Source of the DNA: an uncultured Oscillospiraceae bacterium | Lineage (GTDB): Bacteria > Bacillota > Clostridia > Oscillospirales > Acutalibacteraceae | Reading direction: 5' to 3' | Assembly: GCA_948471205.1 (NCBI GenBank) | Contig: CAOKRT010000003.1 | Coordinates: 62,001 to 126,000 of the forward strand | DNA: 64,000 nucleotides | Shown: piece by piece, positions 47,799-51,479 of the stretch | Layout of the letters: every line of letters starts with the position of its first letter | Position numbering within the stretch: position 1 is the stretch's first letter | Program-made: the position numbers and the translations under genes | The notes under the pieces: generated by a model | What the model was told of the DNA's origin: nothing | Database searches by the model: none | What the model saw: only the letters and a program-made list of their open reading frames with translations

Positions 47799-47875
47799 TG
47801 GTCGAGGTGACAAGATTCGAACTTGCGACCCCCACGTCCCGAACGTGGTGCTCTACCAAACTGAGCCACACCTCG
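47799..47875 (-). tRNA. tRNA-Pro (anticodon CGG)
   Basis: A full cloverleaf on the minus strand: acceptor CGAGGTG/CACCTCG, D arm with GCTC/GAGC, anticodon stem CCACG/CGTGG around the loop TTCGGGA (anticodon CGG), T arm with TTCGAAT, discriminator A and an encoded CCA. 77 bases. It reads the CCG codon. A single tRNA followed by its own terminator. Confidence 0.95.
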
Positions 47876-49663: not shown

Positions 49664-50494
49664 TTATTTTAAAATACTGTAAGGATTGGAATATAAATCC
49701 ATTTCAGGATTAGCCGCAATGGGTTTTGCATTCTTTAAACAAGCACCTTTGATTAAAAAAACGGCAACTTCTTTTCCGATTTTTTCATAATTTCTGTTAA
49801 GAATTTTTGATGATACGGTTTTGTTGAACAGATTAATTAACGGTCCCATACAGAATGCTGTTATGATTGTGCCGATTCCTATATTGCGGATTTCCGAAAA
49901 ATCACCACTGAACACTGCAGTCATTCCGCCGCTGATGATAAGTCCTATAAGAATAACGGTTACATCTGTAATAATTCTTACCCATTTATGCGGAAGTTTT
50001 GTTTTACGGCTAAGCATAAATCCCAGTGCATCGTAAGGGCCGACACCGATATTCGCGGTGAAAAATAATGAACAGGCAAAACAAAGTGTTACAATTCCTG
50101 CAAGCAAAAGCGGAATCCTTACCGCCAATGTATAATTGTTCTGCACAAAAGGCTGGAATATACTTTGGAAGAATTCACATGCATAGCCGCAGCCAATCAT
50201 ATTGAATACGGTGCCGATTCCCACAAGACCTCTGTGGGCAATCAGAATAACATATAAAAGAATAGCGGCATTAACAATAAGCTGGTACGTGCCAAAGCCT
50301 ATTCCGAATGCAGAGGCTATATTCATATTCATGGAAGTGAAAGGATCAACACCAAATCCGGAAACGGAAAAAAGTGAAATACCCAAACCCATTATTATAA
50401 TGCTTATGAAAGATATAATGACTCTTTTCGGCATATTGCCCTGTGAAAACATATCTTTTAAATAACCGATGATTTCTGTTTCAAGCTTTTTCAT
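49664..50494 (-). CDS. YczE/YyaS/YitT-family membrane protein
   Basis: A 276-residue protein with about five membrane segments in the first 210 residues and a soluble tail. The family motif SVSGFGVDPFTSMNMNIA and its second-half echo NIGVGPYDALGFML are plain. Function unknown; YczE is linked to surfactin production in B. subtilis but this is not general. A hairpin (50571-50578 with 50586-50593) lies in its likely 5' leader. RBS AGAGGT. The sRNA candidate 50665-50759 is upstream on the same strand. Confidence 0.85.
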   Translation of the reverse strand: MKKLETEIIGYLKDMFSQGNMPKRVIISFISIIIMGLGISLFSVSGFGVDPFTSMNMNIASAFGIGFGTYQLIVNAAILLYVILIAHRGLVGIGTVFNMIGCGYACEFFQSIFQPFVQNNYTLAVRIPLLLAGIVTLCFACSLFFTANIGVGPYDALGFMLSRKTKLPHKWVRIITDVTVILIGLIISGGMTAVFSGDFSEIRNIGIGTIITAFCMGPLINLFNKTVSSKILNRNYEKIGKEVAVFLIKGACLKNAKPIAANPEMDLYSNPYSILK

Positions 50495-50664
50495 GATTAC
50501 CTCTGTAAATGACTATTTTGTTCTTTTGCTTTCATTATTATATTACCGAAAATAATTAAATCAAGCAGATTTCAGCACTTTCTGTGTGCTGAACATAATA
50601 TACAAAGAAAAGTTAAAACTTTTGTGAAATATTAACAAACAAAAAGATCTGTTTTTTAAAAATG

Positions 50665-50759
50665 AAAAAAGCTGCCGAGGGGACGACAGCTTTTTCCAAA
50701 GGGGTAAAAATTTATGTGAAAGCCAAAGGCTTTTCAACAAAGCAGTGTTTCGCTTTGTT
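50665..50759 (-). ncRNA. Candidate C-rich small RNA (about 95 nt)
   Basis: On the minus strand, a promoter (50793-50766) is followed by hairpin 1 (50760-50752 with 50743-50735), hairpin 2 (50734-50728 with 50724-50719), a linker with CCCC (50704-50701) and a terminator hairpin (50694-50686 with 50674-50666) whose loop shows TCCCCT, ending in T6 (50670-50665). There is no ORF. Exposed CCCC motifs are a hallmark of Firmicute sRNAs (such as RsaE) that pair with ribosome-binding sites. Family unknown. It could also be an attenuator for the YczE-like gene 170 bases further on. Confidence 0.65.
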
Positions 50760-50765
50760 GATTTA

Positions 50766-50793
50766 ATTATATATCAGAATGCAGAAAAGTCAA
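50766..50793 (-). promoter_or_regulatory. Promoter of the candidate sRNA
   Basis: Minus strand TTGACT (50793-50788), 16-base spacer, TATAAT (50771-50766). Confidence 0.75.
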
Positions 50794-50942: not shown

Positions 50943-51479
50943 TTACTCCATCTGTTTACCTAAAAATGCGGCGGCAACCTGAACGAGTTTAATATCTGTT
51001 TCACTTGGCGGTTCATGGGATTCATCTTCAATCAGTGCTACTGCACCTGAAACATCCCCGCCGTATATAATCGGATAAACAACATTCGCTTTTCGGTTAA
51101 AGCCTTCTATGGCATTAATTGCCGGAACATCATTTGTTCTGATATGAATTGCTCTGTTTTCCATGAGTTCTTCAACATTTTTTGTAATTCGTCTTTCCAG
51201 TATTTCACGTTTGCTTATGCCGGAAGCGGCAATAACATGATCGTTATCCATTATGGCAATCGGCAGTCCGCCGCTTTTGTGAAGTACTTCTGCATATTGG
51301 TTTGCAAAATTTGAAAGTTCGCCGATTGGTGAATACTTTTTAAAAATCACCTCTCCCTCAGCGTCCGTGAAAATTTCAAGCGGGTCTCCTTCTTTAATTC
51401 GAAAAGAACGCCTGATTTCTTTCGGAATCACAATTCTTCCCAAATCATCAATTCGTCTTACAATTCCTGTTGCTTTCAT
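50943..51479 (-). CDS. spoVT: Stage V sporulation protein T (AbrB-type regulator)
   Basis: A 178-residue transcription factor of normal SpoVT length. The N-terminal AbrB swapped-hairpin DNA-binding domain reads MKATGIVRRIDDLGRIVIPK, then EIRRSFRIKEGDPLEIF. The C-terminal GAF domain is about 55-178 (LPIAIMDNDHVIAASG). In Bacillus it tunes forespore sigma-G genes, so its presence points to an endospore-forming lineage. Monocistronic, with terminator at 50903-50929. Confidence 0.93.
   Translation of the reverse strand: MKATGIVRRIDDLGRIVIPKEIRRSFRIKEGDPLEIFTDAEGEVIFKKYSPIGELSNFANQYAEVLHKSGGLPIAIMDNDHVIAASGISKREILERRITKNVEELMENRAIHIRTNDVPAINAIEGFNRKANVVYPIIYGGDVSGAVALIEDESHEPPSETDIKLVQVAAAFLGKQME

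Follow-up and report, generated by a model that had tools for sequence, protein, structure and literature searches.

A probable new family of C-rich-seed small RNAs, predicted to block translation starts of carbohydrate genes in a genus of uncultured Clostridia

Between spoVT and a gene for a YczE-like membrane protein, the minus strand of the DNA analysed here (the window, a stretch of 64,000 nt from an uncultured clostridial bacterium) carries about 100 nt that a first-pass annotation took for a discrete small RNA gene. The locus raises the question of whether this is a gene in its own right and, if so, on what its RNA would act. The features of the region are given below; the name YczE is that of the first-pass annotation, the Pfam match being to DUF6198.

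50943..51479, minus strand: spoVT, the upstream neighbour (Pfam SpoVT_C, 1e-39)
~50929-50903, minus strand: terminator-like hairpin of spoVT (read from the sequence, partly in the terminator listing)
50766..50793, minus strand: promoter, TTGACT (50793-50788), 16 nt, TATAAT (50771-50766)
50660..50760, minus strand: sRNA gene, ~100 nt (fold z -6.9; related copies in 43 of the 80 genomes searched in the genus)
50735..50760, minus strand: hairpin 1, 10 pairs (fold and ten-locus alignment)
50719..50733, minus strand: hairpin 2, AAAGCC-UUU-GGCUUU (fold; almost invariant in the near clade)
50699..50718, minus strand: CACAUAAAUUUUUACCCCUU, the unpaired core and predicted seed (reverse complement of a Shine-Dalgarno sequence, 9 nt and AUG)
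50701..50704, minus strand: conserved CCCC, centre of the predicted Shine-Dalgarno pairing (invariant in 34 of 34 aligned rows)
50658..50698, minus strand: intrinsic terminator, a 15-pair hairpin and U-rich tail (stem-loop 50698-50663 in the fold)
50682-50679, minus strand: CCCC in the terminator loop (not conserved)
50537..50564, minus strand: promoter-like site TTGATT-16-TATAAT, before yczE and after the sRNA terminator (10 of 12 consensus matches)
49664..50494, minus strand: YczE-like membrane protein (DUF6198), the downstream neighbour (Pfam DUF6198, 6e-9)

The promoter proposed earlier, TTGACT-N16-TATAAT, was confirmed with 11 of 12 consensus matches and is the best of the 13 promoter-like sites between 49500 and 52000, although a single site of this kind is weak evidence, since shuffled versions of that region average 9.4 of them. 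The proposed anatomy of two hairpins, a single-stranded stretch with CCCC and a terminator was borne out by the fold of 50760-50655, which has a free energy of -38.7 kcal/mol (z = -6.9) that none of 200 shuffled sequences equalled, and in which the 20 nt from 50718 to 50699 are unpaired with a probability of 0.95-1.0. From the promoter, transcription would begin near 50759, and the RNA would end near 50660; the six T residues noted at its 3′ end are present, but the full end reads T6-CA-T5. The RNA carries no open reading frame of at least 60 amino acids, in keeping with the earlier claim that it has none, except that one 59-amino-acid frame with a TTG start crosses it. In its own genome the sequence is single-copy, with one full match and 21 others that are short and have E-values of 0.6 or worse. 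In the window's clade the gene thus has, by sequence, the promoter of its own and the intrinsic terminator without an open reading frame that mark trans-acting sRNAs, and promoter, fold and terminator together support the view that it is a discrete sRNA-like gene.

Relatives of the RNA are carried by 43 of the 80 genomes of the genus, counting both exact cores and diverged copies. A DNA search of these genomes gave some match at E ≤ 0.01 in 48, among which ten, the window's own included, matched over at least 110 of the 146 nt of the query; among the remaining 38, 27 had their best match over the unpaired core (query positions 80-111 or a piece of them), not over the hairpins. The exact 17-mer core, ATAAATTTTTACCCCTT, was found at the sRNA locus in 32 genomes, and a backwards-control pattern occurred three times in total across the 80 genomes with one mismatch permitted. 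In eleven more genomes the core has diverged, examples being ACATAAATTTTACCCCTT, CATATAATTTTTACCCC and CATAAATTTTTTCACCCCTT, and precedes a hairpin and a T-run; these copies were found by a sequence profile (R1) and inspection of the sequences, three of them (G054, G078 and G042) having weak profile E-values (1e-5 to 3e-4) and resting on the core-plus-hairpin pattern. Beyond the genus, an exact search with the 19-nt core, which does not reach diverged cores, found it in 2 of 398 genomes of the bacterial family, both of them among the seven sampled from this genus, and in none of the 391 genomes from 134 other genera. The 19-nt core had no exact match in viral contigs and the 146-nt stretch no match at all in plasmid records, and a phage or plasmid origin was rejected on these grounds.

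The part of the RNA that is kept is the unpaired stretch. In an alignment of 34 rows (A1), TTTACCCCTT is invariant and each position of CATAAATT is retained in 32 or 33 rows, whereas the letters of the adjoining terminator change; among the ten closest loci AGCCTTTGGCTTTCACATAAATTTTTACCCCTTTG is invariant, so that the conserved unit far exceeds the CCCC on which attention had first been fixed. Conservation at homologous loci therefore holds for the unpaired CCCC and for the presence of a terminator, but not for the second CCCC: this is present in the terminator loop as described, but in 1 of the 34 rows, that of the window, and was rejected as a motif. Hairpin 1 is paired in 82.5% of cells across ten loci, two of which aligned poorly, with two pairs changed on both sides. 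Hairpin 2 shows no compensatory change in the ten loci of the near clade, because it hardly varies there, and in several other clades, read by eye, a different AAAGC..GCUUU-like hairpin takes its place. For the three-helix structure as a whole, 92.4% of cells are paired in the ten nearest loci, five pairs are changed on both sides (reached by 20 of 500 shuffles), and the covariation score exceeds that of all 500 shuffles and of all slid versions; further pair types are not in excess, with 465 of 500 shuffles reaching the observed number. RNAalifold returned no pairs on the mixed alignment A1, probably because the variable-length terminators misalign.

The reverse complement of the core, AAGGGGTAAAAATTTATG, reads as a start codon preceded by a spacer of 9 nt and a Shine-Dalgarno-like sequence, which upholds the earlier proposal of a C-rich unpaired seed facing ribosome-binding sites. 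In the window's genome (G000), 37 other matches to the core with at most three mismatches were listed and 29 of these fetched, of which 12 coincide in register with the start of a gene. Pfam scans of ten of these identified an MFS_2 transporter, L-arabinose isomerase, GH20 and GH3 glycoside hydrolases, an ABC ATPase with a MalK-type OB fold, the N-terminal half of a transketolase, a GFO/IDH/MocA dehydrogenase, an FAD oxidoreductase, a DUF2804 protein and an LRR/dockerin protein. Perfect 17-nt antisense matches stand at MFS_2 gene starts in two further genomes (G039 and G055), and a match with one mismatch in a third (G007).

Most weight is carried by a sample of the window's own genome, 464 kb with 390 gene starts (400 kb of contigs C1 and C4 plus the window), in which starts were ranked by the energy of their duplex with the core. 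The seven MFS_2-type genes rank 1, 3, 7, 11, 16, 60 and 309 (rank-sum p = 6e-4), a result reached by 0 of 60 shuffled seeds, and the 16S tail used as seed in the same test gave p = 0.08. Four MFS_2 query genes were taken from the top of the energy list and their relatives then gathered, a procedure that could overlook very distant MFS_2 genes in the sample. A GGGG in the leader, found at 28 of the 390 starts, precedes the start codon in 5 of the 7 MFS_2 sugar transporters compared with 23 of the 383 other genes (Fisher 2.5e-5); in the leader of the gene ranked seventh it lies unusually far from the called start.

A related pattern was followed in five RNA-bearing genomes (G005, G010, G036, G037 and G030), where 34 of 37 AGGGGTAAA-N2-7-ATG sites are gene starts. 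The 37 are those of 38 listed non-sRNA sites that were counted, G005:C22:7978, an MFS_2 gene, being left out, and three G075 sites were excluded; 32 of the 34 gene starts were scanned with Pfam and two (L351 and L357) named by likeness. At Pfam cut-offs, 13 of the 34 are carbohydrate genes (eight MFS_2, two GH2, one GH28, one class II aldolase and one with a CBM4_9 domain), compared with 0 of 12 gene starts from 20 of the 75 sites of an anagram control, AGGGGAAAT, in RNA-bearing genomes (p = 0.011). If the control gene L372, which has no Pfam match and looks MFS-like by eye, is counted, the control rises to 1 of 12 and the contrast weakens to p = 0.07. Where no RNA was detected, the same AGGGGTAAA pattern gave carbohydrate genes at 2 of 17 gene starts (p = 0.06), drawn from 20 sites in eight such genomes among the sites listed. 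One further gene, L349, fell just below its cut-off (27.6 bits against 28); counting it would give 14 of 34, with p-values of 0.009 and 0.053, and our assessment is unaffected by this choice, as the own-genome test carries most of the weight. Genes for DUF2804 proteins, FlK thioesterases, SDR proteins and metallophosphoesterases recur in two to three of the five genomes. In G005, G010 and G037 the fluoroacetyl-CoA-type thioesterase (FlK; L333, L341 and L357, the first two identified by Pfam and the third by likeness) shares the leader AGGGGTAAAAGAAATG, which makes it a conserved candidate target outside sugar metabolism.

These starts might, on the other hand, carry GGGG for some other reason, such as weak or otherwise regulated translation, and the sRNA might have a different and smaller set of targets. 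We regard this as unlikely, yet several results lean towards it. The DUF2804 genes by themselves speak for the sRNA: a leader GGGG precedes them in 24 of 34 RNA-bearing genomes compared with 2 of 21 others (Fisher 1.5e-5), and within the MRNHEV subfamily in 9 of 17 compared with 2 of 21 (p = 0.005). Starts were read by eye with the best copy taken per genome; the 34 come from 37 RNA-bearing genomes with a match, two of which (G004 and G036) were not fetched and one (G078) left out for its unclear start, counting it as negative giving 24 of 35, and the comparison group is 21 of the 30 other genomes. However, a tree of 30 DUF2804 proteins divides by clade, into 11 genomes with neither RNA nor GGGG and a group of 19, 17 of which have the RNA; the other two, G029 and G038, whose assemblies comprise about 210 and 420 contigs, carry GGGG, so that the association across genomes amounts to about one event. 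In an independent-pairs test, which with three pairs has no power, cases in which the DUF2804 GGGG accompanied the RNA did not outnumber those in which it ran counter to it. One DUF2804 copy, at G037:C10:3242-4264, has an in-frame TGA.

The site counts and the duplex energies are open to the same explanation. Sites of the AGGGGTAAA pattern are more numerous in RNA-bearing genomes (p = 7e-7), but so are control AGGGGAAAT sites (p = 0.004), so that the excess lacks specificity (pooled Fisher 0.14), AGGGG starts in general being more frequent in the RNA-bearing group. When the CCCC was kept and its flanks were shuffled, 4 of 40 seeds formed at least as many duplexes below -16 kcal/mol as the real core did, and 2 of 40 at least as many below -18 kcal/mol; since shuffling the flanks loses only part of the signal, most of it is the CCCC:GGGG pairing. 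Permuting the spacer did not single out the core in the 390-gene sample, the observed counts being reached by 9, 14 and 23 of 84 permutations at 10, 11 and 12 of 15 matches, respectively. No significant difference between the groups emerged across 30 MFS_2 loci in 14 genomes (p = 0.15). A strongly matching MFS_2 start also occurs in G059 and G026, in neither of which the RNA was detected. In G059, which is 98% complete and in which no RNA copy was found, the MFS_2 gene L440 has AAAGGGGTAAATTTATG; this may reflect a lost RNA, a missed RNA or chance. The target prediction called for earlier, with CCCC against start sites, has thus yielded an MFS_2 excess in the window's genome, while several other tests were not significant. 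Against an independent origin of the GGGG starts stand the matches of 16 to 17 of 17 nt at MFS_2 genes in three genomes and the absence of carbohydrate genes, by Pfam, from the 12 anagram controls.

Where the RNA lies in other genomes bears on its function. Among 33 loci with the core at one mismatch or fewer, a count that leaves diverged copies aside, it follows yczE in 16 and spoVT in 12 (the window included), and has neither adjacent in five, two of which (L190 and L193) are contig ends. In the yczE-type arrangement the yczE stop codon lies 44-67 nt before the core in all 13 loci read, so that the RNA looks like a 3′-UTR RNA, and no separate promoter could be seen by eye at these loci. In the spoVT-type arrangement TTGA(C/T)T-16-TATAAT stands 47-50 nt before the core in all ten loci examined; at two more loci after spoVT, outside that check (L191 and L198), no such promoter was seen by eye. 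The conserved unpaired seed occurs independently of the neighbouring genes, as is characteristic of trans-acting sRNAs. At three loci away from spoVT and yczE (L183, L199 and L200, in G004, G046 and G050) the RNA stands beside a divergent long frame, which at L199, the one scanned, is spoIIE by Pfam; with spoVT and this spoIIE-like gene as neighbours, two of the arrangements touch sporulation genes. In G073 and G079 (L208 and L213) the gene next after the RNA encodes DUF2804; it has a GGGG leader and is also one of the predicted targets.

The 16 loci in 3′-UTR position would also suit an RNA that is at heart a stability element or terminator of yczE, detached from it in the window's clade, with the core retained for an RNA-binding protein. 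A U-rich unpaired stretch before a terminator is consistent with this, and a protein-binding core would be invariant too. We nevertheless think it quite improbable, given that the promoter is conserved in the window's clade (10 of 10 examined) where spoVT has a terminator-like hairpin of its own, and that the core mirrors a Shine-Dalgarno sequence, spacer and AUG with many matches falling on sugar-gene starts. Moreover, the obvious candidate protein, Hfq (PF17209), had no match in the window's genome, which is estimated to be 98.9% complete; 5 of 14 control genomes did match. No Hfq was thus found on which an Hfq-dependent sRNA would rely. According to PMC8216469, sRNA regulation in Firmicutes is generally taken to work with other chaperones or without any.

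The attenuation of the YczE-like gene that the first-pass annotation had kept in reserve fares worse. The RNA and its terminator hairpin are on the same strand as yczE, which is the next gene in the window, 166 nt downstream, and the linkage to yczE recurs across the genus; a cis-acting attenuator or leader is nonetheless very improbable, as the RNA follows yczE in 16 of 33 loci and lies elsewhere without yczE nearby in others, which means that attenuation of yczE is not its common function. In addition, yczE has a promoter-like site of its own past the RNA terminator, and neither the minimum-energy nor the centroid fold of 50760-50655, the span folded, contains an alternative pairing. Just upstream of that promoter-like site, at 50569-50591, lies a perfect inverted repeat, TTCAGCAC-ACAGAAA-GTGCTGAA, which could be an operator or a leader hairpin. 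It is highly improbable that a small protein is encoded by the RNA or by the strand opposite it: the plus strand does carry AAAGGGGTAAAAATTTATG, but its ATG directly precedes TGA in the window and other codons in the TTTAACATAAA loci, and the conserved letters are those of the unpaired core beside a variable terminator.

Given that the anatomy and the unpaired core are conserved, that this core is complementary to translation starts and that sugar transporters are in excess among such starts in the own genome, we consider it likely that the locus belongs to a new family of trans-acting small RNAs with a C-rich seed that blocks Shine-Dalgarno sequences of carbohydrate genes. The RNA is probably a regulator that lowers the translation of a number of genes for taking up and digesting sugars, because its near-invariant exposed stretch mirrors their ribosome-binding site and start codon. 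In the window the gene stands alone, between a promoter and a terminator of its own, and would be transcribed presumably in answer to a signal. Its unpaired core (ACAUAAAUUUUUACCCCUU) would pair in the cell with the Shine-Dalgarno region, and often with part of the spacer and the start codon, of target mRNAs whose starts are predicted to read like AAGGGGUAAAAAUUUAUG. Most probably ACCCC would pair with GGGGU(AAA) leaders, the duplex extending into the AU-rich core as far as each target allows, and so block ribosome binding or initiation; an exact 17-nt match seems not to be required, as suggested by the varying length of the U-run in diverged members. The A/U part of the core may pair with the spacer and AUG, or may bind a protein. 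The predicted regulon is centred on the uptake and breakdown of carbohydrates, with MFS_2 sugar transporters, genes for arabinose use and glycoside hydrolases, together with DUF2804 proteins.

A wider version of this proposal is more tentative, and we hold it to be somewhat doubtful: the seed might be a nearly invariant 'anti-start' of 17-20 nt that mirrors the whole translation start (Shine-Dalgarno sequence, spacer and AUG) and serves as a general brake on genes for sugar uptake and polysaccharide breakdown in a genus in which no Hfq was found, the stand-alone and the yczE 3′-UTR forms sharing the seed, and target sites having evolved towards GGGGUAAA to join the regulon. If the proposal is right, it adds a concrete RNA layer of carbon control in uncultured Clostridia, several genomes of this genus coming from gut and rumen samples. 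It offers a seed that can be read from the sequence, a predicted sugar regulon, a comparison between genomes with and without the RNA, and one conserved core in two gene arrangements, stand-alone and 3′-UTR.

The family appears to be undescribed, as the first-pass annotation had supposed. The Rfam/Infernal search it had called for, run over 4227 families at the gathering thresholds, matched a tRNA at 47802-47875 and nothing else in the window, and relatives occur in more than half of the 80 genomes of the genus, as counted above; in the literature searched no mention of a small RNA together with Acutalibacteraceae was found, though a description may exist elsewhere. The 23 permissive Rfam matches at E up to 10, SurA and GibS among them, are all below cut-off, lie for the most part on the plus strand, and were rejected. 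The assignment to the RsaE class stands as a likeness of the C-rich seed facing the Shine-Dalgarno sequence, whereas membership of the RsaE/RoxS family itself was rejected, the RsaE model (RF01820) scoring 14.6 bits against a gathering cut-off of 79 and being absent from the gathering matches; a further mark of that family is control by ResDE/SrrAB and Rex.

The closest systems are the sRNAs with C-rich regions known from Bacilli and Staphylococci, RoxS/RsaE, FsrA and CsfG (PMC8216469). RoxS/RsaE is likewise a short RNA with hairpins and an unpaired C-rich region, and the invariant ACCCC here is such an unpaired motif complementary to the Shine-Dalgarno sequence, a property shared by other C-rich sRNAs as well. 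Unlike in RsaE, the seed here is a single AU-rich core of 17-20 nt that ends in ACCCCUU and mirrors the stretch from Shine-Dalgarno sequence to AUG, and the predicted targets are genes of sugar uptake and breakdown, so far in one genus of Clostridia. CsfG, a C-rich sporulation sRNA of endospore formers (PMC8216469), offers a parallel in its link to sporulation, which here is one of position alone, with spoVT as neighbour and spoIIE at the one locus scanned, and the RNA matches no Rfam family at gathering score. RsaI (RsaOG) of Staphylococcus aureus is described in PMC9266662 and PMC8216469 as repressing the glucose-uptake gene glcU_2 by Shine-Dalgarno pairing, as using a C-rich region for its mRNA targets while also having G-rich regions, and as being controlled by CcpA; the comparison with it is confined to the C-rich and Shine-Dalgarno features, again with no Rfam family at gathering score here. 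The RNA would thus resemble RoxS/RsaE and FsrA in its manner of working and RsaI in its predicted sugar-transport target.
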